This document shows, piece after piece, positions 8,427-31,101 of a stretch of DNA of 64,000 nucleotides (position 1 is its first letter; every line of letters starts with the position of its first letter). Made by a program: the position numbers and the translations under genes. The stretch comes from Melioribacteraceae bacterium (GTDB lineage Bacteria > Bacteroidota > Ignavibacteria > Ignavibacteriales > Melioribacteraceae), in assembly GCA_030584085.1 (NCBI GenBank), contig CP129490.1, positions 2,761,511 to 2,825,510 of the forward strand, in the 5' to 3' direction. Below the pieces are notes generated by a model. It had not been told where the DNA came from. It was given only the letters and a program-made list of their open reading frames with translations, and ran no database searches.

Positions 8427-10210
8427 AAATAAACACCGCTGCTTAAACTGCTTGCATTAAATTTCATTGAATGCTTACCGGTAGCATATTTTTCATCCAA
8501 CAACACTTTAACTAATTCCCCATTCGAATCAAAAATCTCTAATTTTACAGCACTCATTTGATCAAGGTGAAATTCAATTAGTGTCTCCGGGTTGAATGGA
8601 TTCGGATAATTCTGAAATAGGTTTACCTCAGTGGGGATAGCATCATTACCTACTCCCACAGTTACTAATGAGACTGAAACTTTTGCACTATTGTTAGAAA
8701 TATTTCCGGAGGCATCAACTGCATAAACTGCATAATAAAGATAATCAGTTTCCCCAACAGGGATTGAACTATCAATATATACTGAATCATCAACCTCAGA
8801 ATAAATATTCAGCGTGTCAATTATAAAATTTTCCGAGAATGATCTATAAATGTAATAGTTTGTTACATCTGATGAATTACTATGCTTCCAATTTAACTCT
8901 ATGTTATTTGAAAAGAGTATTCCATTCAATGAAGAGGGCGGTTCGGGACTAATATTATCCACTGAGTAACCGGATGCAACATTTGATGAGTAATACTTTG
9001 CATTTTGAGTTACCGCATCAATTTGAAAGTACACTAAATTCTTTCCACTTTTATTTGAATCGGCAATGGTACTTAATTCAACGACATATGTATCCTGTCC
9101 CGACGGTTTGATTCGCTCGGTCATTACTTTTTTATTTTGAATTATTTTGTAAACATTATAATCTGTTATTACTTCAGAATTATTTAGACCATCCAAATCG
9201 CTTCTTTCAAATTCAAGAAGAACATAACCGCCATTATCATAAGGGCGGTCGATTACAGATATAATTGTAGGCGGAAAATTATTTGCAACAATACCATCGC
9301 TCCATGTTAGACCGCCGTCTGTCGTTTTAATAATATTATCCTCGCTATCGATTGCCCATCCATAAGAAGAGTCAATAAAATGAATAGATTGAACTTCAAT
9401 TCCTTTGTAATATTTAGTTGAAAAGGATGAGCCTCCATTATTACTGTACATGATGCCCTTTTCGCCACACAATAAAATTTTATCTTTGTTTATTACAAAG
9501 TAACCGTGAATGTTTCTTAAACTTGCTGCGGGAATTTTATTCCACGAATTGCCTCCATCTGTTGTTTTATAAGAGTATTGGCGACCAACGGCATACCCAA
9601 TTAAGGAATCAACAAAAGTGACTCCAGCATTATTCCCATAACAAACACCACCTAAATCACTAATAAATGTCCAGTCACTACTTGCTCCATTTTGTTTATA
9701 TTTATAAACCGAGCCATCTTCCTTTACTAACCATCCCTTATTTGCTTGGATAAAACTAGTTCCCAATACATCTAACCAATTATGATCCATTGTAGTTTCA
9801 GTCCAATTTTCTCCACTATCTGTTGTAATGAAAACTCCGCGATCGGCAGATATTATACCATAATTACTGTTTTTAAATTGAATTCCTTTAACATAAACCG
9901 AAGACTCAACCAAAGGCTTAGTTTCCCAGCTAGCACCTCCATCTTCAGAGAAACGTATTCCATTATTTTGATAACCAACAAATAACTCTTGAGCAGATAA
10001 CATGGAGAGACCTTTCATATTAGTCCCCTCAAGAATGGCATCCCATGTATCACCACCGTCTTCAGTTATTGAAAGTACATATTTATTTATTAATTGATTG
10101 CGAAATATTTTCATTCCGTTGAGTTCATCATAAAAATAAATTTCACCATAGGATTGTGCAAATAGCGAATTGGAGAGTAATAACGCAATTAGTACTCTAA
10201 TTAAATACAT
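8369..10210 (-). CDS. Secreted T9SS-cargo protein with BNR/Ycf48-like beta-propeller
   Basis: 613-residue exported protein. The signal peptide MYLIRVLIALLLSNSLFAQ is followed by about seven repeats with the Asp-box pattern (S/T-x-D-x-G-x-(T/S)-W), such as TEDGGDTWD, SEDGGASWE, TTDSGENWT, TTDGGNSWN and TTDGGLTWS, spanning about residues 25-290. These form a Ycf48/sialidase-like propeller. A fibronectin-III-like region follows (about 390-520), and the last 80 residues are a T9SS sorting domain with YPNPFNPETLIEF and a C-terminal KKMILLR. The start at 10210 gives a clean signal peptide. It is probably a cell-surface or secreted binding protein; ligand unknown. Confidence 0.82.
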   Translation of the reverse strand: MYLIRVLIALLLSNSLFAQSYGEIYFYDELNGMKIFRNQLINKYVLSITEDGGDTWDAILEGTNMKGLSMLSAQELFVGYQNNGIRFSEDGGASWETKPLVESSVYVKGIQFKNSNYGIISADRGVFITTDSGENWTETTMDHNWLDVLGTSFIQANKGWLVKEDGSVYKYKQNGASSDWTFISDLGGVCYGNNAGVTFVDSLIGYAVGRQYSYKTTDGGNSWNKIPAASLRNIHGYFVINKDKILLCGEKGIMYSNNGGSSFSTKYYKGIEVQSIHFIDSSYGWAIDSEDNIIKTTDGGLTWSDGIVANNFPPTIISVIDRPYDNGGYVLLEFERSDLDGLNNSEVITDYNVYKIIQNKKVMTERIKPSGQDTYVVELSTIADSNKSGKNLVYFQIDAVTQNAKYYSSNVASGYSVDNISPEPPSSLNGILFSNNIELNWKHSNSSDVTNYYIYRSFSENFIIDTLNIYSEVDDSVYIDSSIPVGETDYLYYAVYAVDASGNISNNSAKVSVSLVTVGVGNDAIPTEVNLFQNYPNPFNPETLIEFHLDQMSAVKLEIFDSNGELVKVLLDEKYATGKHSMKFNASSLSSGVYFYKLSTRNRTITKKMILLR

Positions 10211-18097: not shown

Positions 18098-20197
18098 ATG
18101 AAAAATTTATCAACTATAGTATTTTTATCATTTATTCTAACAACAATCTTAGCAGGTGAAAATTTGTTTGTCCAAGAGAAATCTACAATACTTGAAAACG
18201 TTAAAGAACAACGTGAAGCTGAACTAAACTCATATTACTCCAATAAACAGTTAGGTTCATTTATTATTGACGGCAAAACTTATTTTAGATTATTTACTCC
18301 AAATGCGGTCGAAGTTGAGCTGGTAACTTTTAAAAATGTTGAAGACAGCGTTGGTCAAACTCATAAAATGAAGCGCGATAAAGATGCGGTTTGGGAAATA
18401 ATTTTGGAAGGTGATTTACACGGACTTTATTATGGTTTCAAAGTCTATCATAAAGAGGACGAAATAGGAAATCCCGAACAAGTTTTATGTATCGATCCTT
18501 ATGCGAAAGCTGTTACAACATTTAATACTTACATGAATCCAAGAAAATCTATTGTATATAATAGAGATTATGAATGGGAAGGTGATGAATGGATTCAACA
18601 AGATTGGCGAGATTTAATTATTTATGAAATGCATGTTCGTGATATGTCAATACACTCTACAGCAGGAGCAGCAAATCCCGGAACCTATAAAGGTCTTACC
18701 GAAAAAGGAATACGAGGTGGATTAGATTATATTAAAAAACTTGGTGTAAACACTGTTGAGTTACTTCCCGCACAAGAGTTTGGGAATATGGAAATCCCTT
18801 TCGAAGATTCACTCGATGGCCGATTTAATACATGGAATCCTTATGAACGAAACCATTGGGGATATATGACTGCGGCATACTTTGCTCCGGAGGCATATTA
18901 CGCCGAAGATTGGAAAGAATTCAAAACCAATACTTGGATGGGAAAGGAAGCAAAACAAGTAAATGCATTTAAAGATATGGTAAAAGCATTTCATCGAGAT
19001 GGCATTGCTGTTATGCTGGATGTAGTTTACAATCATCTCTCAGAATATGAACTTGGCAACCTGAAACAAATTGATAAAGAATATTACTTCAGACTTGATG
19101 ATAACGGAAATTTTATTGCAGAAAGTTATTGCGGCAACGATTTAAAAACCGAGCGGCCGATGGTCCGTAAATTAATTATCGATTCAATTTTGTACTGGAT
19201 GAAAGAATATCATATAGATGGGTTTCGATTTGACCTTGGGAAACTAATCGATTGGCAAACAATCGAAGACATTATTCACGAGGCAAAAAAGGTAAACCCA
19301 CAAGTAGTGTTTGTCTGTGAACCTTGGGGCGGCGGATACGATCCGCAAGGATTCTCAATGCGCGGTTGGGGTGCCTGGAATGATCAAATCAGAAATGGAA
19401 TTAAAGGTGAAAACCCGGTAAATGGTTTAGGTTGGATTTTTGGCGAGTGGTATGGAAATAACTCACCTCAACGAGTTAAAAGCTATGTAAACGGAACATT
19501 AGTAAAAGATTCTTTGGGATTGTTTCAAAAGAAAGAACACTCTGTTAATTATTTAGAATCACATGATGGATATACTTTAGGGGATTTTATTAGAATAGGA
19601 TTACGAAATGTAAAGCCTGACGAAATCATTAGAGATGTTGATAAACATGTAAAACTAACTCTTCTTGAACAAAAGTTAAATAAACTTGGTGCATTATTCC
19701 TTATGACTTCGCAAGGAATAACAATGATACACTCCGGACAAGAATTTGCTAGATCTAAAGTTATTCCGATAGATATTGAAGTTGAAGATTCGCATAAAGG
19801 TCAAATTGATCATAACACTTACAACAAAGATAATGATGTAAACTACATCAATTATGATCACGTTGATATTAATTATGGCTTATTCGATTATTACCGTGGA
19901 TTGATCGAATTAAGAAAAACTTATTCTGCATTCCGACACGCTGATTATGAAAATATAAATTTTATTGAAAATAAAAGAACACCGTTTTCATTCGCTTATA
20001 CTGTATCGCATGAAACTGATGAATTTCTTGTTTTATTTAATGCCGATAGAAAAATCAAAACAGAATATTCTCTACCGGAAGGCAAATGGGAAGTACTTGT
20101 GAATTCAAAATACGCCGGGACGAAAGTGTTAGAAACAGTTGATGGAATTTATAAAGTAGAAGTGAGTTCCGGTGCTGTGTTAAAGAAAGTAAATTAA
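18098..20197 (+). CDS. Exported GH13 glycoside hydrolase (pullulanase/isoamylase type)
   Basis: 699-residue alpha-amylase-family enzyme, probably debranching alpha-1,6 links in glycogen-like glucans. The signal peptide is MKNLSTIVFLSFILTTILAG. Residues about 40-140 form a CBM48-like N-terminal domain, followed by IYEMHVRDMS and the catalytic barrel: nucleophile Asp379 (FRFD), acid/base Glu408 (VCEPWGGG) and Asp490 (ESHDG). NHWGYMTAAYFAPE is the debranching-enzyme region. A small beta domain ends the protein. There is no T9SS sorting domain, so it is probably periplasmic. Its last bases overlap the convergent kinase gene by four bases. Confidence 0.87.
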   Translation: MKNLSTIVFLSFILTTILAGENLFVQEKSTILENVKEQREAELNSYYSNKQLGSFIIDGKTYFRLFTPNAVEVELVTFKNVEDSVGQTHKMKRDKDAVWEIILEGDLHGLYYGFKVYHKEDEIGNPEQVLCIDPYAKAVTTFNTYMNPRKSIVYNRDYEWEGDEWIQQDWRDLIIYEMHVRDMSIHSTAGAANPGTYKGLTEKGIRGGLDYIKKLGVNTVELLPAQEFGNMEIPFEDSLDGRFNTWNPYERNHWGYMTAAYFAPEAYYAEDWKEFKTNTWMGKEAKQVNAFKDMVKAFHRDGIAVMLDVVYNHLSEYELGNLKQIDKEYYFRLDDNGNFIAESYCGNDLKTERPMVRKLIIDSILYWMKEYHIDGFRFDLGKLIDWQTIEDIIHEAKKVNPQVVFVCEPWGGGYDPQGFSMRGWGAWNDQIRNGIKGENPVNGLGWIFGEWYGNNSPQRVKSYVNGTLVKDSLGLFQKKEHSVNYLESHDGYTLGDFIRIGLRNVKPDEIIRDVDKHVKLTLLEQKLNKLGALFLMTSQGITMIHSGQEFARSKVIPIDIEVEDSHKGQIDHNTYNKDNDVNYINYDHVDINYGLFDYYRGLIELRKTYSAFRHADYENINFIENKRTPFSFAYTVSHETDEFLVLFNADRKIKTEYSLPEGKWEVLVNSKYAGTKVLETVDGIYKVEVSSGAVLKKVN

Positions 20198-20217
20198 CTA
20201 TAGATAGCTTTCTTTAA
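20180..20217. terminator. Bidirectional inverted repeat over two convergent stop codons
   Basis: Perfect 10-bp arms TTAAAGAAAG (20180-20189) and CTTTCTTTAA (20208-20217) around an 18-base loop that holds the stop codons of both convergent genes. The AT-rich arms can act as a terminator in either direction, but no long T-run follows, so this is moderate evidence. Confidence 0.5.
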
Positions 20218-23200
20218 AGATATTTCCAAAGCCTCTTTAAATGATTTCAAGTTTACGGGTTTTTGGAATACAAACTCAACACCCTGTTCCGCATATTCTT
20301 CCGATATCGCAAGAGTGATGTCGCTTGAAAGTACAATTACCGGTGGCTTAAATTTTACATCAAGAATTTTTATCTGTTTTACCAATTCATAACCGCTCAT
20401 TTCCGGCATATAGTGATCAGTAATTACAATTGCCGGGGGTGATTCAATGATGGATTTCAAAGCTTCCTCACCATTCGACGCCTCAATGATTGTATAACTT
20501 GGCAGAAAGTTTCGAATTAATTTTGAATATAATAATCGATCGGTTCTAGTATCATCGACAAGTAAAATATTCATTGATGATACCGGGATGGTAAATATAA
20601 ATTCAGTACCATCGCCCAATATAGATTTAACAGAAATTTCACCGCCATGTTTTTCAATAATTTCTTTGACTAAAGATAAACCCAAACCACTTCCCTTTTC
20701 GCCCGATGTCCCAGGTGTAGTAAATTTTGAATCAACATTAAACAACTTATCGATATCAGATTCTTTTATACCAACTCCGTTATCTTTAACATGAAATTGA
20801 AAAGCTCTTTTTTCAACAACCGGTTCGGCAGATATAGAAATATTTCCGCCGTCGTTCGTAAACTTAATTGCGTTCGAAATCAAATTATTGAACACCTGCA
20901 GTAAAAGTGTTGAATCAGCATGAACGAATACATCTTCTTCAACATTTAAATTCACTTCTATTTTCTTTTGGAGTGCGGTACCGGATAACATGTTAAAAGA
21001 TTTTTTAACAACTTCTCTAACATTAATTCTTTCCGGTTCAAATTTAATTCTTCCTGTTTGAATTCGTGTCCAATCCAATAAAGAGTTTACAAGCGAGAGC
21101 ATACTTTTTGATGAATCTTGAATCAGCTTTATATAATTTCTTTGTTTTTCTTCTGAAACATTTTGTTCACCAAGTAAATAATCCGTAAACCCGATTATTG
21201 AACTGAACGGAGTTCTCAAATCATGCGAAATTATCGAAAGAAATCTATCTTTTGCTTCATTCAATTTTTTTAGATTCTCAGCAGAATTTTTTAGTTCTTC
21301 CTCGGCTTTCTTTTTATAAGATATATCGCTCACTAAACCATAAATACGATGGATTCTACCTTTATCTTTTCGGATAATATTAATTTTATTTTCAATCCAA
21401 ACAATGCTTCCTGAATTGCTAATAATTCTATATTCGAATGCTTCAGAAGTTCTTCCGGGATCAGAGTATAATCTGTTTATTTTTGTTAGAATAGATTCTG
21501 CATCATCAGGATGAATTATTTTCATCCATAACTTCTCATCAGTTAAAAATTCATCAACAGTAAATCCGGTAATATCTTTAATCGCCTGTGTATATAAAAC
21601 TACCTTTAACTTGCCATCTTTTTCTTCAGCAGTCCATAAACTTTCTTCAATATTTTCTGTAATACTTCTATAACGTTCTTCACTTGCTCTCAATTCTTCA
21701 CGGCTTGATTTTTCAACTGTGACATCTCGCAAAACCGAAACTAAGAACATGCTTTCGTCAACACCGTACTTTGCAATGGAATTTGCCACAGGAAGTTTAC
21801 TTCCATCCTTTTTAATTAAATCAAATTCCATACGAGAAGATTCGGCGGCTCCGGTTTCAATTTCAACAAAATTTTCTTGGATTTCTTCTCTTACCGTTGG
21901 ATCGATTAGTTTATAAAAATTACTTCCAACCAAATCTTCTTCCGAATTATAACCTAACATGCTTGAGAATGAGTTATTCACAAGAATTATTGTACCGTTA
22001 ACAGTTACCGCAATACCATCTTGAGATGCTTCAAAAACCGTTTTGATTAACAGTAAATCCTTTTCAGCTTGCTTTTTTTGAGTAATATCAGTTAGTACAG
22101 CTATATAATACTTTGGCTTGTTTTCTAAATCGTGTACCGAAGCAAAGCTGGCAAGAACAAATATTACCTCGCCGTTACTTTTTACCAGCGGCAACTCTCT
22201 GGCTTGCATCGAATCGAGATTTTTCGGAGAAATTGTAAATTCATTTTCTTGGAGATACTCAATATCAACCAAATCTGAAAAATACTTATTTGAGAGTTCT
22301 TCATCGGAGTAACCAAAAGTTTTAACAAAATATGGATTTACGTATTGAATTCTTCCATTAAGATCAATTGTGCAAATGTATTCGTGTGAATTTGTGACTA
22401 TGTTACGAAATCTTTCTTCGGATTGCCGAAGTTCTTTTTCTAGATTATATCTTTCTGTAACACTCGAGCATAAAATGACTATGGATTGTTTATCTCCTTC
22501 TCCGGTTATGCCCATTCTTACATCGTAAAACTCCTTATTATCTTCACCCTTATCTACGGTAAGTTCACCTTCCCAATGTTTTTTTTCTAATAGTTCATCA
22601 CGTAATATTTGGAAGTAATCTCCATTTAATGATGGGAAAATTATATCTATAAATTTCCCGAAGACTTGACTCTTTGTATAGTTAAACGTTTTCTCAGAGG
22701 ATTCATTCCAAAATCTAATTTCACCTTTGAAATTAATTCCAATCACTGCATCAACAATTGACGAAGTGATTGCTTGATATCGACGTAATTCATTTAGTTC
22801 ACTTTCAAAAGCTATTTTTTCTTCGAGTTCTTTTGTTACATCTTTAATAAGAACAAGTGTTGTAGTGTTGTTGCCGGAGATTGGAATGACCTTAACATTG
22901 ACAAAATTATTATCATAAAGTTTACTTAAGGGAAGGTTAATCTCTTTTTTCTCTACAATATTTTGTTTTGCTTTTTCATAAAGATTGTCTAATGCTTTTT
23001 CACAATCTTTTTCAAATAATTCTCTAACAAATTTTATTTCCTTTTTTATTTTTATGCGGTGTGATGAAGAATTATAAATTACTTCACCTCTCATGTTCGT
23101 AATAAAAATTATATCGGCAATCGGAGAGAGAGTTTCTAGTAATGATTGATAATCATATTTTTGCTCCTCAGGTGATGAAATTGATTTGATATCTTCAATA

Positions 23201-23544
23201 ATTATAACTCCGCCTTTGAATTTGTTTTCTTCAAAGATCGGAACACCTTTAACAATTATTTTAATCGCACTGCCATTTGTTGCTCTGGTTTTGGATAATT
23301 CAACTTCAAATCCATCTCCCTTAATTAAATTTTGAAATTGTTTTGCAAGTGAGCCAAGACCAATTTTCTGTTCATTTAAAATTGATTTACCATATAATTC
23401 ATCTTTGGTAAAAGCTGTTGAAATTCCGAAAGAAAAAAAGCTTTCATTCAAAAAAGTTATTCTTAGTTCTTCATCAAAGATTAATATTCCGATAGGAGCA
23501 GAATCTAAAAAAGTGTTTAACAAGATTTCAGAAGTTGTTTTCAT
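20194..23544 (-). CDS. Cytoplasmic hybrid sensor histidine kinase, multi-PAS with receiver domain
   Basis: 1116-residue signalling protein without a transmembrane helix. About six PAS-type sensor domains fill residues 5-760; several end in the typical D-(I/V)-T/S pattern (VLTDITQKKQAE, LRDVTVEKSSRE, VSDISYKKKAEE). HisKA follows with phospho-acceptor His774 (SHDLRTP), then the ATPase domain (NAIKFTNDGG, DNGVGI, GSGLGLSLV), and a C-terminal receiver with phospho-acceptor Asp1043 (VITDHYMPEMSG) and Lys in FQKPVN. It probably integrates intracellular redox or ligand signals and passes phosphate to an unlinked phosphotransfer protein. No partner regulator lies nearby. Confidence 0.93.
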   Translation of the reverse strand: MKTTSEILLNTFLDSAPIGILIFDEELRITFLNESFFSFGISTAFTKDELYGKSILNEQKIGLGSLAKQFQNLIKGDGFEVELSKTRATNGSAIKIIVKGVPIFEENKFKGGVIIIEDIKSISSPEEQKYDYQSLLETLSPIADIIFITNMRGEVIYNSSSHRIKIKKEIKFVRELFEKDCEKALDNLYEKAKQNIVEKKEINLPLSKLYDNNFVNVKVIPISGNNTTTLVLIKDVTKELEEKIAFESELNELRRYQAITSSIVDAVIGINFKGEIRFWNESSEKTFNYTKSQVFGKFIDIIFPSLNGDYFQILRDELLEKKHWEGELTVDKGEDNKEFYDVRMGITGEGDKQSIVILCSSVTERYNLEKELRQSEERFRNIVTNSHEYICTIDLNGRIQYVNPYFVKTFGYSDEELSNKYFSDLVDIEYLQENEFTISPKNLDSMQARELPLVKSNGEVIFVLASFASVHDLENKPKYYIAVLTDITQKKQAEKDLLLIKTVFEASQDGIAVTVNGTIILVNNSFSSMLGYNSEEDLVGSNFYKLIDPTVREEIQENFVEIETGAAESSRMEFDLIKKDGSKLPVANSIAKYGVDESMFLVSVLRDVTVEKSSREELRASEERYRSITENIEESLWTAEEKDGKLKVVLYTQAIKDITGFTVDEFLTDEKLWMKIIHPDDAESILTKINRLYSDPGRTSEAFEYRIISNSGSIVWIENKINIIRKDKGRIHRIYGLVSDISYKKKAEEELKNSAENLKKLNEAKDRFLSIISHDLRTPFSSIIGFTDYLLGEQNVSEEKQRNYIKLIQDSSKSMLSLVNSLLDWTRIQTGRIKFEPERINVREVVKKSFNMLSGTALQKKIEVNLNVEEDVFVHADSTLLLQVFNNLISNAIKFTNDGGNISISAEPVVEKRAFQFHVKDNGVGIKESDIDKLFNVDSKFTTPGTSGEKGSGLGLSLVKEIIEKHGGEISVKSILGDGTEFIFTIPVSSMNILLVDDTRTDRLLYSKLIRNFLPSYTIIEASNGEEALKSIIESPPAIVITDHYMPEMSGYELVKQIKILDVKFKPPVIVLSSDITLAISEEYAEQGVEFVFQKPVNLKSFKEALEISLKKAIYS

Positions 23545-23627
23545 TAATCCGATTATTGATTGGAATACTACTATCGAATATAGGAAATAAGTATGTTTAA
23601 TTAAATATTGGCTGGATTAATATATCA

Positions 23628-23650
23628 GGGGATGTGTTTTAAACATCCCC
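23628..23650 (-). terminator. Hairpin downstream of pckA
   Basis: Perfect 8-bp stem GGGGATGT / ACATCCCC with a seven-base loop, starting seven bases after the pckA stop on the minus strand. The following sequence (TGATATATTAATCC) is AT-rich but lacks a clean T-run. Confidence 0.65.
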
Positions 23651-23657
23651 AAATAAT

Positions 23658-25262
23658 TTAACTTCTGTAAGTCGGTCCGGATTTCTTAACATTATCATTT
23701 ACGTATTCTTCAAAATCCTTAAAGTTTTCATGGAACATATCAGCTAATTTTTTAGCTGATTTATCGTAGGCATCTTTATCTTCCCATGTGTTTCGTGGGT
23801 TTAAAACTTCTTTCGGAACATGCGGAATTTCATCCGGAACTTGCAAACCGAAAATTGGATCCGGATTTGTTTTTACATTATCCAGCTCACCGTTGAGAGC
23901 CGCAGTTAACATAGCACGTGTATATTTAATTTTCATTCTGCTGCCGACACCATACGGGCCGCCGCTCCAACCGGTATTTATTAACCAGCAAGCCGAGTTA
24001 TGTTTCTCAATTTTTTCACCCAACAATTTTGAATAAACCGATGGATGCAGAGGCATAAATGGAGCACCAAAACATGTGCTGAATGTTGCTTTGGGTTCTG
24101 TTACACCTTTTTCAGTTCCTGCAACTTTTGCAGTGTAACCTGATAAAAAATGATACATCGCTTGATCTGTAGAAAGTTTTGCGATTGGCGGTAGAACTCC
24201 AAACGCATCGGCAGTTAACATAATTATATGTTGAGGATGACCCGCCATTCCGCTTTCAACAATATTATTGATGTGAGTAATTGGATATGCTGCTCGAGTA
24301 TTTTCAGTTAAGGAACCGTCATCTAAATCCAATTTTCTTGAATCAGTATCAAACGCTACGTTTTCTAATATTGTACCGAACATTCTTGTTGTTTCATAAA
24401 TATCCGGTTCGGCTTCTTTTGAAAGATTTATTACTTTAGCATAACAACCGCCTTCGTAATTAAATACGCCGGTATCGCTCCACCCATGCTCATCATCGCC
24501 GATTAATTTTCTTTCCGGATCAGCGGATAAAGTTGTCTTGCCCGTTCCCGATAACCCAAACAAAAGAGCAACATCATCATTTTTACCAACGTTAGCTGAA
24601 CAGTGCATTGACATTACATTTCGTAATGGATTGAGATAATTCAATATTGTAAACACAGATTTTTTAATTTCACCGGCATACGGAGTGCCGCCGATAAGTA
24701 CAATCCGTTTTTCGAAATTCACAATTACGAACACATTTGAATTAGTTCCGTCGTCACCTGGTTCAGCATGCAAACTAGGCATTTGAATAATTGTAAACTC
24801 GGTTTTTAAGTTTTCGAGTTCTTTTTTGTCCTCAATTCTGACAAACATGTTGCGAGCAAAAAGACTGTGCCACGCAGATTCGGTAATAATTCTTATCGGC
24901 ACTTTATATTTTGGATCCGTTCCAGCATAACAATCTTGAACATAAATATCTTTGTTCTGTATATATGCAATCATTTTCTTATAAAGCCCGTTAAATTTGT
25001 CTTCATCAATCGGGCGATTTACTTTTCCCCACCAAATATTTTTATCGCTCGTCTTTTCCTTAACAATAAATTTATCGTTAGGACTTCTACCGGTATATTG
25101 ACCGGTTCTAACAACCAAGGGTCCTAAATGAGATAACATTCCTTCTCTTCTGCAAATTGCTCTTTCATACAACGAAGGAGTTGACATATTGTAATAAATA
25201 CCGAGAATATTTTTGATTCCTAATTCTTGTAATTCTTCAAGAATTCTTACTTTGGTTTTCAT
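23658..25262 (-). CDS. pckA: Phosphoenolpyruvate carboxykinase (ATP)
   Basis: 534-residue enzyme that converts oxaloacetate plus ATP to PEP, CO2 and ADP, the first committed step of gluconeogenesis. It has RTGQYTGRSPNDKF in the N-terminal domain, the kinase-1a P-loop GLSGTGKTTLS, the metal-binding GDDEHGWSD, and NTRAAYPI. Length and motifs fit the ATP-dependent bacterial form, not the GTP form. It stands alone with its own hairpin terminator. Fructose bisphosphatase at 32538-33554 serves the same pathway. Confidence 0.97.
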   Translation of the reverse strand: MKTKVRILEELQELGIKNILGIYYNMSTPSLYERAICRREGMLSHLGPLVVRTGQYTGRSPNDKFIVKEKTSDKNIWWGKVNRPIDEDKFNGLYKKMIAYIQNKDIYVQDCYAGTDPKYKVPIRIITESAWHSLFARNMFVRIEDKKELENLKTEFTIIQMPSLHAEPGDDGTNSNVFVIVNFEKRIVLIGGTPYAGEIKKSVFTILNYLNPLRNVMSMHCSANVGKNDDVALLFGLSGTGKTTLSADPERKLIGDDEHGWSDTGVFNYEGGCYAKVINLSKEAEPDIYETTRMFGTILENVAFDTDSRKLDLDDGSLTENTRAAYPITHINNIVESGMAGHPQHIIMLTADAFGVLPPIAKLSTDQAMYHFLSGYTAKVAGTEKGVTEPKATFSTCFGAPFMPLHPSVYSKLLGEKIEKHNSACWLINTGWSGGPYGVGSRMKIKYTRAMLTAALNGELDNVKTNPDPIFGLQVPDEIPHVPKEVLNPRNTWEDKDAYDKSAKKLADMFHENFKDFEEYVNDNVKKSGPTYRS

Positions 25263-25396
25263 TATTCCTCATAAATTTTTAGAAAAAGTTTATAAAAATT
25301 TAAACAAAAGCGTTCGCTTTGCCAAATTATTACTGATCGATTTAGAATGATTTTAATTCTGTTTCTAATTATTTTGATTCATATTATTATTTAAAA

Positions 25397-25426
25397 TTGA
25401 TTGAATATCAATTAATCTTAGCTTTG
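25397..25426 (+). promoter_or_regulatory. Candidate Bacteroidota-type promoter
   Basis: TTG (25397-25399), 19 bases, then TAGCTTTG (25419-25426). This fits the TTG-N19-TAnnTTTG consensus used by the primary sigma factor of Bacteroidota-type bacteria. It would give a leader of about 125 bases for the five-repeat gene at 25559. Sequence match only. Confidence 0.4.
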
Positions 25427-25467
25427 TATGCCGTTAAATATAAAATCAGCTTCCCTCACAATTTTTT

Positions 25468-25490
25468 TTTACATGTGCTCTCCATGTAAA
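25468..25490. repeat. Inverted repeat in the leader of the five-repeat gene
   Basis: Perfect 8-bp arms TTTACATG / CATGTAAA with a seven-base spacer, 68 bases upstream of the start codon. It could be a protein-binding operator or an RNA hairpin. The poly-T before it points away from a plus-strand terminator. Confidence 0.35.
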
Positions 25491-25558
25491 GTTTAATTAA
25501 TATTATTAACGAAAACTGTATTAACTTATATTACAATATAATTTAGGGAGGTAGCTTA

Positions 25559-27976
25559 ATGAAAAAAATCTACTTAATTCTATTTCTTTTTCTTGTCGGT
25601 TCCGTATCAGCTCAATGGTACAATTTACAATGGCCACCGACTGCCGAAATTAATGAGGGTGGTTCATTTAATGTGTATGCACAAATTTGGATTGACGGAG
25701 TAACAGCTTCAGCAGGTCAGTCAGATGGACTTCAAGCTTGGATTGGTGTAAGTAGTACAAATACCGACCCGTCAACATGGGCGGAGGACTCATGGTACCC
25801 AGCAACATTTAATGGTGATGCAGGAAATAACGATGAATTCACAGCTTCAATAGGTAGTGATTTATCAGGTGGAACATATTACTATGCCAGCAGATTTTTA
25901 TATGAACCGCCGGTTGATGTGAGAAGTTTAAATCCGTTGAATGCTGCAGTTTATTGGTATGGAGGAACCGGAGGTCCATGGAATAACGACAGTGGAGTTC
26001 TGACGGTAAATGCATTACCGACTATCGGTTGGGCAAATCTGCAATGGCCTCCTAATGCTGCGATTCTGGAAGGTGATTCTGTTTCAGTTTATGCACAAGT
26101 TTGGATGGACGGTGTAACTAGCGGAGCAGGTCAAGGATCTAATATTTATTCATGGATTGGCGTTAGTACCACAAATGATAATCCGGCAACCTGGGATGAA
26201 TCAGTTTGGGTTGAAGCTGATTATCTCGGTGACGTTGGCAACAACGATGAATACACAGCGGCAATCGGCAGTTCGCTTTCCGAAGGAACCTATTATTATG
26301 CAAGCAGATTTTTGTATCAAGTACCTGACGTATCAAAAAGCTCTAATGAAATTACAAACGGACTAAATTATTATTATGGTGGTTATAACGGAGGAGCCTG
26401 GGATAGCTTAAATAATGTTTCAGGTGTCTTAACAGTTTCATCAGTTCCTGATACTGTAATTGATTGGGCAAATTTGCAATGGCCTCCTCAAGTTAATCTT
26501 GTAAATGAATTAGAGTTTACTGTGTATGGACAGGTTTATGAATCCGGAGTGACTGACGGTGAAGGACAAGGTGCAGGAATTGAAGTTTGGTTCGGGCTTA
26601 ACTTGAAAAATACTGATCCAAGTACATGGGATGCGTCAGCTTGGACAAACGGAATTTTCAATGTTGACGTGGGAAATAACGACGAATACATGGCTACATT
26701 AAGCATTGGTGAATTGTTAAAAGAAATTGAAATATTACCATTTTCATTTTACTATGCAGCACGATACAGATTAAATAACGGTGACTATTACTATGGAGCA
26801 TTCCAAGGCGGAGCTTGGGATGGTGTTAATAATGTAAACGGTGAAGGACTATTTAGCTTACCTGATATTTCATCTATCGGATGGTGCAATTTACAATGGC
26901 CGCCGTTAATGTCATTTGTTGAAGGTGAAAGCGGGACTGTCTATGCTCAGCTATGGATTGATGGAGTTACTTCCGTGCCTGGTGCAACCGAAGGAATACC
27001 GGCTTACATTGGTGTTCACACAGAAAATGTTCATCCGGCTCAATGGCCTGTTGAAGCATGGATTCCAGCAATTTTTAATGATGATGTAGGTAATAACGAT
27101 GAATTTATGGCTGAAATTGGAGCTAATCTTACACCCGGAACTTATTATTATGCAAGTCGTTTTGTTCCCGGTGGTGTAAAATCATTTTACGGTGGATATA
27201 ATGCCGGCGGAGGTGGTTTCTGGGATGGTGTTAATAATGTCTCCGGTGTGTTAACAATTAATCCAATCGGTGGGCCGACCGTTGATTGGTGTAATTTGCA
27301 ATGGCCTCCTGACGGAAATATTCAGGAAGGAAATGAATTTATAGTTTACGCTCAAACATGGATTCAGGATGTAACAAGCATACCCGGAGCAACACCGGGC
27401 TTATCGGCTTGGATTGGAGTAAGCACAGAAAATTCAGACCCATCTACTTGGAATGAAAATGTTTGGAAGTCAGCAGCATTTAATGTTGATGCCGGAAATA
27501 ATGATGAATTTATGGCAGATATTGGTTCTTCACTTTCAGGCGGAACATACTATTATGCAAGTCGTTTCCAAATTGAAGATGGAAGTTTTTCATATGGCGG
27601 TTATAATGTAGGTGGTGGTGGATTCTGGGACGGTACAAACAATGTTTCCGGAACTTTAGTTGTTGATCCTTCAACTTCTGTTGATGAAGATAAAATTCCG
27701 ACCGAATATGCACTGAGTCAAAATTTTCCGAATCCGTTTAATCCGACTACGACTATTAGTTTTAGTCTTCCATTCCGAAGTAATGTTGTGTTGAAAATTT
27801 ACAATATTATGGGTGAAGAGATCGCGAATCTTGCAAACAACACATTTGAAGCCGGCGTTCATTCATTAAATTGGGATGCCGCAAATTATGTATCCGGTTT
27901 ATATATCTTAAGAATTGAAGCCGCATCAAACGAAAAGAATTTTGTCGATATGAAAAAGATGATGCTGGTTAAGTAA
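25559..27976 (+). CDS. Secreted T9SS protein with five tandem NLQWPP beta-domains
   Basis: 805-residue exported protein. Signal peptide MKKIYLILFLFLVGSVSAQ, then five repeats of about 137-145 residues beginning NLQWPP near residues 22, 159, 304, 442 and 578. Each repeat has VYAQ-W-DGVT, a W(I/F)G segment, N-DPSTW, GNNDE(F/Y), G-YYYA-R(F/Y) and WDG-NNV. Repeat 3 is the most divergent and carries a short insert. A T9SS sorting domain (NFPNPFNPTTTISF) ends the protein. GGGAGGT precedes the ATG. Such domains also occur singly beside secreted enzymes in related bacteria, but their ligand is not known to me; a carbohydrate-binding or surface-layer role is a guess. Confidence 0.85.
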   Translation: MKKIYLILFLFLVGSVSAQWYNLQWPPTAEINEGGSFNVYAQIWIDGVTASAGQSDGLQAWIGVSSTNTDPSTWAEDSWYPATFNGDAGNNDEFTASIGSDLSGGTYYYASRFLYEPPVDVRSLNPLNAAVYWYGGTGGPWNNDSGVLTVNALPTIGWANLQWPPNAAILEGDSVSVYAQVWMDGVTSGAGQGSNIYSWIGVSTTNDNPATWDESVWVEADYLGDVGNNDEYTAAIGSSLSEGTYYYASRFLYQVPDVSKSSNEITNGLNYYYGGYNGGAWDSLNNVSGVLTVSSVPDTVIDWANLQWPPQVNLVNELEFTVYGQVYESGVTDGEGQGAGIEVWFGLNLKNTDPSTWDASAWTNGIFNVDVGNNDEYMATLSIGELLKEIEILPFSFYYAARYRLNNGDYYYGAFQGGAWDGVNNVNGEGLFSLPDISSIGWCNLQWPPLMSFVEGESGTVYAQLWIDGVTSVPGATEGIPAYIGVHTENVHPAQWPVEAWIPAIFNDDVGNNDEFMAEIGANLTPGTYYYASRFVPGGVKSFYGGYNAGGGGFWDGVNNVSGVLTINPIGGPTVDWCNLQWPPDGNIQEGNEFIVYAQTWIQDVTSIPGATPGLSAWIGVSTENSDPSTWNENVWKSAAFNVDAGNNDEFMADIGSSLSGGTYYYASRFQIEDGSFSYGGYNVGGGGFWDGTNNVSGTLVVDPSTSVDEDKIPTEYALSQNFPNPFNPTTTISFSLPFRSNVVLKIYNIMGEEIANLANNTFEAGVHSLNWDAANYVSGLYILRIEAASNEKNFVDMKKMMLVK

Positions 27977-27993
27977 TGATTTTTAGATTTACC

Positions 27994-28029
27994 AAAAACC
28001 CAACTTCTCAAAAGAAGTTGGGTTTTTTT
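27994..28029. terminator. Strong terminator after the five-repeat gene
   Basis: Stem of at least 12 bp, AACCCAACTTCT / AGAAGTTGGGTT, loop CAAA, extended by A:T pairs and followed by TTTTTTT. It lies 18 bases past the stop codon and can act in both directions. The same arms recur at 29780-29813. Confidence 0.93.
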
Positions 28030-28208
28030 ATATCCATTCCCTCAACGAAATTTTCAATATATTTTCTATCGAAAGCAATCCTCTAGTACATTCACGATTA
28101 TCAATGAAATGAAATTAAAAAACATAATTGCTAAATTTGAATTATTAAATTCACTTAGATTAATTTTACTTTCTTGGCGGAGTATTATAAGTACTATCAA
28201 ACTGAAAA

Positions 28209-29591
28209 ATGAAAACTATGTTTAACATAAAAACACATTCGGCATTAATCTACTTTTCCCTTTTGACTTTTGCATTTATCCTTTGTCCTTTGTCCTTTAT
28301 ACTTGTTTCCTGTAACACAACCGAACCTCCGCCGGATAACGATAAACCAAAACCAACTTTATCTCTTTCACTTGATGATACATCACCTACTGAAGTTTGG
28401 CTTAATCTTACAACAACGGACTTAGAACTACCCAATGAGATTATTCTATTTAGAGACGGAGATACATCACAAATAATAGCACTTACCGAAAGTGAAATAA
28501 CTTTGTATGAAGACTCGCTTCTTCCATCTCAGAGTTATACTTACAATGTATCCAGCGAAAAAAATCAAGTAACCAGTAATGAAGTTACAGCGGTAACAAT
28601 GGATACAACAAGCCACAATTTTACTTGGGAGGTATTTGAGTTTGGTGAACACGGAAACAGCATATTGAGAGATGTAGCAATTATAGACGAGAGCAACATT
28701 TGGGCTGTAGGAGCAATTTACCTAAAAGACTCAACCGGGGCGAATGATTCGAAAGTTTATAACGCAGTCCACTGGAACGGTAAAGTATGGCAACCATTGA
28801 GAATTGTGGAAGAAGGATTTCTACTTGCTCCAGAGTATAGTATTTATGCAATAGCGGAAGATGATATTTGGATAGGCGGTTCAATACCTCAACACTGGAA
28901 TGGGAAGACTTGGACTTTCTGGGGAGGAGACAAAGGTTATGAAGGAGGGTTCTATATTAACAAAATTTGGGCTAAAAGTTCAAATGAGGTATATCTTGTT
29001 GGCGGCAATGGAAATATCCGTTATTACAACGGCACGTCATGGCGAAAGATAGAGAATCCCGTAGGGACAGGTGGGACGGATGTTGATTTGCGGGATGTTT
29101 GGGGTCAAGGGGATATAGTCTGGATTAGTGGTTATGAAGAGACCGGTGAAACTGTTTTAATCAAGATTGAAAATGTACTTGCAGAAATAGTCTTCTCCGA
29201 AAATGTAATTAACAATCCTTCTCAATTTAACGGAACGATACGAAGTCTTTGGACTAACACAGAAACACATCTTTATTTACTCAGTTCAACAAACCTATAC
29301 CGATACAGTAATGGTATCAATGACGAAATAACATCATTAGTCGAATTTGGAGAAAGTAGAGCTTGGTTTGAGCGGCTGAGGGGAAATGATGTGAATGATC
29401 TTATTATCGCCGGATATAAATCATCGATTCAACATTATAACGGAAATACATGGAAGGAGTATCCGGAGTTACAAGATGAGTTTAAGATAACATTCGGGTT
29501 GGATTACAAAGATAATATTGTGGTAGTAGTAGGAGAAGATTACAGAAGCGGATTCTTTTCTAAAGGATTTATTTCGATTGGAAAAAATTAA
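28209..29591 (+). CDS. Lipoprotein with beta-propeller-like repeats
   Basis: 460-residue envelope protein. The long signal peptide ends in the lipobox LVSC (Cys35), followed by a Pro/Asp-rich spacer and a fibronectin-III-like domain (about 48-140). The rest is a set of short repeats of the form D(I/V)W-(V/I)G...HWNGK-W, e.g. NIWAVGAI, DIWIGGSI, EVYLVGGN, VWISGYE, DLIIAGYK, with YNG-(T/S)W between them. This suggests a beta-propeller of a type often multiplied in Ignavibacteria genomes. The function is unknown. The gene stands between two copies of the same terminator, next to fragments of other genes, so it may be an insertion at this site. Confidence 0.68.
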   Translation: MKTMFNIKTHSALIYFSLLTFAFILCPLSFILVSCNTTEPPPDNDKPKPTLSLSLDDTSPTEVWLNLTTTDLELPNEIILFRDGDTSQIIALTESEITLYEDSLLPSQSYTYNVSSEKNQVTSNEVTAVTMDTTSHNFTWEVFEFGEHGNSILRDVAIIDESNIWAVGAIYLKDSTGANDSKVYNAVHWNGKVWQPLRIVEEGFLLAPEYSIYAIAEDDIWIGGSIPQHWNGKTWTFWGGDKGYEGGFYINKIWAKSSNEVYLVGGNGNIRYYNGTSWRKIENPVGTGGTDVDLRDVWGQGDIVWISGYEETGETVLIKIENVLAEIVFSENVINNPSQFNGTIRSLWTNTETHLYLLSSTNLYRYSNGINDEITSLVEFGESRAWFERLRGNDVNDLIIAGYKSSIQHYNGNTWKEYPELQDEFKITFGLDYKDNIVVVVGEDYRSGFFSKGFISIGKN

Positions 29592-29660
29592 AAAGGTATT
29601 AGAAATGTTAACTCCACCGGAAAGCACAATCCCTCGATAGAAAAAATTGCTGCGAATTAT

Positions 29661-29726
29661 TCACAGAATCGAAACAATCTCATCTGTAATTTTTGCAGTC
29701 GCGCCAATGTTTTTCTTAACATAATC
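29661..29726 (-). pseudogene. kdtA 3'-end fragment (last 21 codons plus stop)
   Basis: Read on the minus strand this encodes DYVKKNIGATAKITDEIVSIL followed by TGA, matching the end of the intact kdtA at 29821-29886. By hand comparison 56 of 66 bases agree. Eight of the ten differences are synonymous, and the two changes (E to K, V to I) are conservative. The upstream part of the gene is missing. The pattern suggests descent from a functional, diverged kdtA rather than decay of a recent copy. Confidence 0.85.
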
Positions 29727-29742
29727 GGGGAAAAATAGATTT

Positions 29743-29763
29743 AAGATGATGTTAATCAAGTAA
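29743..29763 (+). pseudogene. T9SS gene 3'-end fragment (KMMLIK stop)
   Basis: Codons AAG ATG ATG TTA ATC AAG TAA match the last residues KMMLVK of the five-repeat gene (27956-27976). The following 40 bases also match its downstream region, including the terminator. It abuts the kdtA fragment within about 17 bases. The rest of the T9SS gene is absent. Confidence 0.75.
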
Positions 29764-29779
29764 TAATTCTAGGTTTACC

Positions 29780-29813
29780 AAAAACCCAACTTCTTTGAGA
29801 AGTTGGGTTTTTT
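29780..29813. terminator. Terminator of kdtA, near copy of the one at 27994
   Basis: Stem AAACCCAACTTCT / AGAAGTTGGGTTT with loop TTG, flanked by T-rich sequence in both directions. It lies eight bases past the kdtA stop on the minus strand. The arms are identical to those at 27994-28029 while the loop differs. Confidence 0.92.
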
Positions 29814-29820
29814 AATACAT

Positions 29821-31101
29821 TCACAAAACGGAAACAATTTCATCCGTAATTTTTGCGGTTGCACCGATGTTTTCCTTAACATAATCGGATGCTATTTGTC
29901 CGAGTTTTGATCTGTAAGTATCATCGGTAATTAATTTACTGAGGATTCTATAAGCTTCTTTTTTATTGTGCACAACTCTGGCGCTTCCCTCTTCAATCAA
30001 TGATAATGCTTCCTGGCTGTTATAAATTTTTGGACCGAAAAGTACCGGCAAACCATAAACGGACGGCTCTAATACATTATGGACATTCTGCTTAAATCCG
30101 CCGCCGACAAATGCTAAGTCGGCATAGTAGTACAAACTAAGTAGAATACCAATTGAATCAATTAGAATGACTCTTTGATTATTATAAATATTCATATGCG
30201 AGAATCTTATTGAACCGATTGATTTATTAACTTGGTGTTCTAACTTTTCGAGATGATTTATTGTTGGTTCGTGCGGTGCAATTATCAAAATTAAATTTTT
30301 ATGTTTACTCATTAATTTAAACAACGCGGGAAGAACAACTTCTTCATCGGATTCCCATGCACTGCCTAATACAACAACTTTCTTACCATCAAAGAAATTC
30401 TCTTTGAATAATTTTTTTTCTTTTGCCTGCAAACTTTTTTGATAAACACGGTCATATCTTGTGTCGCCGACAGTTTTAACTTTACTGCTGTCTAAATTGA
30501 ATTGAAGAAAGTTATTTCTGTCTTCATCGGAAACTGTTAATATTTTATCTATTTCCTTATATATATGATGATGAAAAATCTTAGCGACTCCATACTTTCT
30601 CGGAGAGTTGTAACGCATTGTTGCATCGACTAATAATGTTGGAATTTTTTTATCACTTAATTCAAAAATCATATTCGGCCAAATATCGTAACGCATGAAA
30701 ACGGCGACATCAATTTTTAGAACATCCAGAAATTCTTTGCATTTTTTCCGAGAATCAAGTGGTATGTATGTTACAATATCTGCAAAAGAATAATTTATTG
30801 AATTCTGATAACCCGATGGTGAAAAAAAAGAAACAACTATAATTACTTCTTCTCTTTTTCTTAGCTCTTCGATAATTGGTTTTGCCTGTTCGAATTCTCC
30901 CATCGAAGATGAATGAAACCATATTCGCTTTTTCGATTTATCTAGTTTTTTAACTTGGGATTTTAATTTTTCTGCTAAATTCTTTCGATCTCTTATTCCT
31001 CTTCTAATTTTATTATTGAATAATGACGCGACGTAAATCGCCGCAATGAAAAGTGGAAGTAATAAATAGTCGTAAAAGAATCGAAGTAATTTGATCATCA
31101 T
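29821..31101 (-). CDS. kdtA: 3-deoxy-D-manno-octulosonic acid (KDO) transferase
   Basis: 426-residue GT30 glycosyltransferase (WaaA) that adds KDO from CMP-KDO to lipid A at the inner membrane. The N-terminal membrane anchor is at about 8-27. WFHSSSMGEFEQAKP contains the catalytic Glu, followed by VSFFSPSGYQ, VLGSAWESDEEV, and the C-terminal NVLEPSVYGLPVLFGP. It overlaps the upstream glycosyltransferase gene by four bases (ATGA), so the two are translationally coupled. The last 21 codons have a homologous fragment nearby at 29661-29726. Confidence 0.93.
   Translation of the reverse strand: MMIKLLRFFYDYLLLPLFIAAIYVASLFNNKIRRGIRDRKNLAEKLKSQVKKLDKSKKRIWFHSSSMGEFEQAKPIIEELRKREEVIIVVSFFSPSGYQNSINYSFADIVTYIPLDSRKKCKEFLDVLKIDVAVFMRYDIWPNMIFELSDKKIPTLLVDATMRYNSPRKYGVAKIFHHHIYKEIDKILTVSDEDRNNFLQFNLDSSKVKTVGDTRYDRVYQKSLQAKEKKLFKENFFDGKKVVVLGSAWESDEEVVLPALFKLMSKHKNLILIIAPHEPTINHLEKLEHQVNKSIGSIRFSHMNIYNNQRVILIDSIGILLSLYYYADLAFVGGGFKQNVHNVLEPSVYGLPVLFGPKIYNSQEALSLIEEGSARVVHNKKEAYRILSKLITDDTYRSKLGQIASDYVKENIGATAKITDEIVSVL

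Follow-up and report, generated by a model that had tools for sequence, protein, structure and literature searches.

Homology-facilitated illegitimate recombination is an established process, described in Acinetobacter, Streptococcus, Pseudomonas stutzeri, and E. coli, that makes structures of the kind reported here (PMC3240628). The same process has been invoked for the displaced effector-immunity remnants in the T6SS clusters of Vibrio cholerae (PMC5361080), while a related displacement through circular intermediates has been proposed for rhs genes (PMC2935791). In addition, the abstract of a study of Porphyromonas gingivalis describes surface proteins that undergo allelic exchange and rearrangement of their domains (PMC5266723). 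Here, we analyzed a 64,000-nt stretch of contig CP129490.1 of Melioribacteraceae bacterium (GCA_030584085.1), hereafter the window, and searched the 3.74-Mb genome from which it derives. The window holds a recombination scar, which probably consists of two alleles of one intergenic interval joined in tandem by recombination between related strains.

Results

The scar lies between a putative pckA (phosphoenolpyruvate carboxykinase; 23658-25262, minus strand), named from its own sequence and its conserved neighbor position, and an intact kdtA (29821-31101, minus strand). In 12 distinct relatives, G002 among them, pckA comes directly after kdtA in the same orientation, the two being 19-265 bp apart; in the window, the interval measures 4.56 kb and holds a T9SS cargo gene and a lipoprotein gene. 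The gap is ∼90 bp in the same-genus genome G002, which lacks the T9SS cargo gene at this place, and relative to G002 this gene is an insertion between pckA and kdtA; no remnants of the ancestral G002 spacer were detected in the window. A further same-genus genome, G001, was uninformative, with no kdtA or pckA match at the locus. In NAT134, from another genus, an unrelated and independent 5.6-kb insertion occupies the same place (L128, 9290-14765). The interval takes up insertions, yet two cases do not amount to a strong hot spot. The NAT134 insertion includes a 1048-aa T9SS gene pointing toward kdtA as well as, judging from its sequence, an apparent DNA methyltransferase and a possible restriction-related partner.

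The T9SS cargo gene of the window (25559-27976, plus strand) encodes an 805-aa protein that contains repeats and, at its C terminus, a sorting domain (Por_Secre_tail, PF18962, E 5e-8; TIGR04183), and is followed by terminator 1 (27994-28027, plus strand; 15-bp stem, loop CAAA) and by the lipoprotein gene (28209-29591, plus strand). The AlphaFold model of the lipoprotein is confident (pLDDT 87.6) and comprises a signal peptide, a probable Ig/Fn3-like domain (residues ∼45-130), assigned by reading the strand pattern in the model, and a beta-propeller (∼131-460), for which the nearest solved folds in the PDB are YCF48 propellers (TM 0.52 by query length and 0.76 by target length). The protein had no family match in Pfam or NCBIfam. 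Between the lipoprotein gene and the intact kdtA there follow a kdtA 3'-end fragment of 22 codons including the stop (29659-29728, minus strand), which represents a third allele of this gene end; a non-homologous join (29729-29742); a T9SS-gene 3'-end fragment (29743-29763, plus strand; KMMLIK and stop); and terminator 2 (29780-29812, plus strand), which has the same 15-bp stem as terminator 1 and the loop TTG.

These pieces form two repeat pairs, the positions and order of which had been described correctly in the earlier note. The kdtA 3'-end copy (29659-29728) is 86% identical to the end of the intact gene (29819-29888) over 70 nt; the alignment scores 90, whereas shuffled sequences reached at most 26 (z 28). 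The other pair (27956-28029 and 29743-29813) comprises the T9SS-gene end and its terminator, the second copy having (i) the last 21 nt of the gene, (ii) the intergenic sequence, and (iii) the terminator; here, even with the hairpin left out, the remaining portion scores 36, compared with at most 26 for shuffles (z 8.5). The stem of the hairpin by itself is dispersed in the genome; TTTACC together with the hairpin occurs at just two sites across the 3.74 Mb, both at this locus, and the repeat is therefore more than a common terminator. At the join, the kdtA end meets the T9SS end, two non-homologous sequences, and from the joined sequence alone no clear microhomology is readable there.

SURF_28 (L114/G058), the sole close relative compared, is a MAG, with a kdtA protein that shares 97% identity with that of the window. 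Its contig C116 matches window positions 18199-28441 at 98.4%, a stretch that takes in pckA, the T9SS gene, the terminator, and the lipoprotein start, and it ends within the lipoprotein gene; its contig C10 begins in the lipoprotein gene and runs through the remainder into kdtA. As the two contigs have an exact 30-nt end overlap, we infer that they are neighbors. In the joined sequence, one open lipoprotein gene (440 codons) precedes the only kdtA end, and both the T9SS-end fragment and the second terminator are absent. The lipoprotein-kdtA spacers of the two strains have no detectable homology. The absence of the scar from the SURF_28 locus supports the earlier proposal that the junction of a related strain had been joined in; together with the short pckA-kdtA gaps of the 12 relatives, it also shows that the layout is not common to all relatives, and it was a common layout that had been named as contrary to that proposal. 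The lipoprotein gene had further been thought to have come in at the same site, but SURF_28 already carries the same gene, and nothing shows that it arrived with the scar. Over 42 kb (18200-60150), tracts of ∼100% identity to SURF_28 alternate with tracts of 90-97%, the largest departure being at this locus, and this alternation would be a sign of frequent homologous recombination, as in recombining populations.

Several smaller features were recorded at the locus. The terminator stem (CCCAACTTCT...AGAAGTTGGG) is present at genome positions 735370, 1207458, 2404583, 2859433, 3036265, and 3369925, as well as in SURF_28; it is common to both strains and follows unrelated genes at the sites looked at. 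The loop TTG of terminator 2 is the reverse complement of the loop CAA of SURF_28 terminator 1 (L176, about 9800-9830), relative to which the hairpin of terminator 2 looks inverted. A 14-nt inverted repeat (13/14) flanks the lipoprotein gene (28059-28072 and 29634-29647); none of 500 shuffles was as good, its right-side copy was not seen in SURF_28, and it is likely due to chance. An extended blast match had suggested that terminator 1 is followed by a third remnant of the kdtA end (28030-28100), which was rejected as chance, since 52 of 500 shuffles reached its score.

The block exchanged between the window and SURF_28 strains runs from about 28600 to 30239 and takes in the propeller domain, the spacer, the scar, and the 3' third of kdtA, which are not ordinary orthologs in the two strains. 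Both of its edges lie in homologous sequence, one within kdtA (30239) and the other within the lipoprotein gene (about 28600), and the scar sits inside it. The last 418 nt of the intact kdtA (29821-30239) differ from SURF_28 by 13.9%, compared with 5.6% beyond, to 32057, a step that none of 1000 permutations equaled. In the lipoprotein gene, identity to SURF_28 is 98% at 28449, 85% at 28569, and 47% at 28689, while fourfold sites are identical at 51 of 55 positions before 28600 and at 12 of 37 after (P 9e-10). In nucleotide coordinates, residue 131 falls at 28599, near this break in identity, and the difference is therefore essentially the propeller domain. The gene is orthologous up to the boundary between the Ig/Fn3-like domain and the beta-propeller and only paralog-like past it; between these related strains, the 5' part of the gene at this locus stays constant and the 3' part is exchanged, and the propeller domain thus differs through exchange, rather than through the arrival of a whole gene. 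No leftover propeller sequence was seen at 29591-29660, past which there are only gene-end fragments. Either strain may be the recipient. The earlier note had rightly seen an exchange at this site, but the region reaches beyond the 27944-29886 given there; likewise, the site is one of swapping, as that note had held for cargo genes, but the lipoprotein gene is shared with the close relative, where its beta-propeller domain is a different one.

The kdtA fragment is short and the counts are accordingly small: over 66 coding nt, it differs from the native allele at 10 positions and from the SURF_28 allele at 10, while the native and SURF_28 alleles differ at 13. The fragment is as far from the two intact alleles as those are from each other, in agreement with the earlier view that its source was under protein selection, and its distance to the native copy is no smaller than its distance to the allele of the other strain. 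The fragment has two changes of its own, each of them synonymous, and at a further three third positions all three alleles differ. The earlier count for fragment and native allele (10 differences in 22 codons, 8 of them synonymous and 2 conservative) was right, but as an excess of synonymous changes it is weak by itself, since synonymous changes accumulate in the intact copy as well (P ∼0.12 if the changes are shared between the copies, half arising in the functional copy). It is the polarized three-allele comparison with SURF_28 that carries the case against an old duplication. Since the fragment has no nonsynonymous change of its own, the join looks recent compared with the divergence of the alleles, and the fragment behaves like an allele that was still functional until recently; a tandem duplication of long ago, as formerly suggested, should have left nonsynonymous decay.

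The genome holds four further full-length or near full-length relatives of the lipoprotein, one reported as two matches. The window copy and the paralog at 418 kb are ∼88% identical over 28600-29080, as against 62% immediately before this stretch and 44% beyond it, and fourfold sites show the same step (31/53 vs 11/37, P 0.01); over 28600-29080, the start of the window propeller is 53-66% identical to the SURF_28 allele of the same locus. This pattern suggests exchange among paralogs. We tentatively raise the possibility of a shuffling system, in which the dispersed lipoprotein genes might swap propellers at the domain boundary with paralogs and with other strains, the pckA-kdtA interval being one exchange site and the scar recording one exchange. 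Genome self-comparison found no scars beside the other lipoprotein paralogs, and a literature search on T9SS lipoproteins in Melioribacter returned nothing relevant. The closest paralog (G000, 418 kb; L040, 1-2853) is immediately preceded by a T9SS gene ending KKMMLIK and followed by a convergent gene, an arrangement as in the window. Four lipoprotein paralogs share, in their DNA (72-76%), ∼110 bp 5' of the start codon and the signal-peptide region (window 28100-28330; L041 2308-2988; L042 1390-1602; L043 2495-2675), perhaps a shared promoter or leader, and a possible hairpin (GCCTCAAGC/GCTTGAGC) is present in three of these four paralogs.

Discussion

As to how the alleles were joined, and in what order, we infer the following. 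Allele A would have comprised the T9SS gene, terminator, lipoprotein gene, and kdtA end, and allele B the T9SS gene, terminator, and kdtA, without the lipoprotein gene; the resident allele may have been either. A DNA fragment from a related strain could have paired by homology at one end, either inside kdtA (on the right) or in the T9SS or lipoprotein genes (on the left), while its other end was joined without homology, linking the last 68 nt of allele A kdtA to the last ∼30 nt of the allele B T9SS gene. The old kdtA 3' end would thereby be left as a fragment, and the terminators and T9SS ends would become duplicates, while kdtA would be kept intact because allele B supplies a complete 3' end. 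A single non-homologous join of A and B would thus explain the order of all the pieces, and the beta-propeller swap in the same block is consistent with repeated homologous exchange at the site. A free-standing allele B, with the T9SS gene directly before kdtA and no lipoprotein gene, was not found among the genomes examined.

A tandem duplicate carrying an insert would show the pieces in exactly this order, and it could have arisen if the T9SS-end/terminator/kdtA-end junction had been duplicated long ago in this lineage, with the lipoprotein gene later inserted into the first copy and the fragments left to decay. We consider this fairly unlikely, given that about three quarters of the fragment's own changes would then be expected to be nonsynonymous and none is, and that the lipoprotein gene is already at the site in the scar-free relative; joining of alleles is favored because SURF_28 is without the scar and the fragment is equally distant from both intact alleles. 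The join need not have occurred in the lineage of the window, if an older scar was lost in SURF_28 via recombination between the two kdtA ends, or if the block was received ready-made. While the entire 28600-30239 differs between the strains, such that either could be the recipient, positive evidence for this course is lacking and one extra event is needed, which makes it unlikely; the nature of the scar is unchanged in either case.

Two alleles in tandem would also be seen in a chimeric contig, in which two coexisting strain haplotypes had been merged. This is very unlikely, as the join links unrelated sequences without a long shared word, where graph assemblers seldom switch, and the genome is one 3.74-Mb contig with 99% completeness and 0.08% contamination. 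Target genes often have their 3' end duplicated by integrative elements, and the weak inverted repeat around the lipoprotein gene might likewise bring to mind a mobile cassette that integrated site-specifically at the kdtA 3' end, with the displaced end as an attachment-site copy. That explanation is barely credible: the T9SS and lipoprotein genes are the only ones of gene size in 25263-29820, with no recombinase-sized gene; the T9SS end and terminator are duplicated as well; the kdtA copy is 14% diverged; SURF_28 carries the lipoprotein gene with a single kdtA end; and gene-end duplicates are absent beside the other lipoprotein copies.

The tandem joining of two alleles, which we prefer, calls for a mechanism already known, and the locus is a well-resolved new instance and clear case of this process. 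It illustrates, in poorly studied T9SS bacteria, how ordinary recombination may swap surface-protein domains from strain to strain and what remnant this can leave, and gene-end fragments next to duplicated terminators could serve as a cheap signature of exchange sites in single genomes.

As in the described cases of homology-facilitated illegitimate recombination, one side of the scar blends into homologous sequence, the other is a non-homologous join, and both versions stand side by side; unlike in those cases, the process is read here from the anatomy of the locus only. In common with the Vibrio cholerae T6SS remnants, a new module would have entered by one-sided homology, with an older 3' piece shifted and kept, although the piece kept here is a housekeeping gene end plus a T9SS cargo gene end, with no evident function. 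Rhs C-terminal displacement is similar in that a secreted or surface protein gene keeps its 5' part constant while its 3' part is exchanged, and remnants lie downstream, but there is no string of orphan tips at our locus, and the exchanged part is a lipoprotein beta-propeller, not an Rhs tip. Porphyromonas gingivalis belongs to a different bacterial group, and the abstract of the study concerned describes no flanking scar; the likeness, as far as that abstract goes, is in the strain-to-strain swapping of surface-protein domains within a recombining population.
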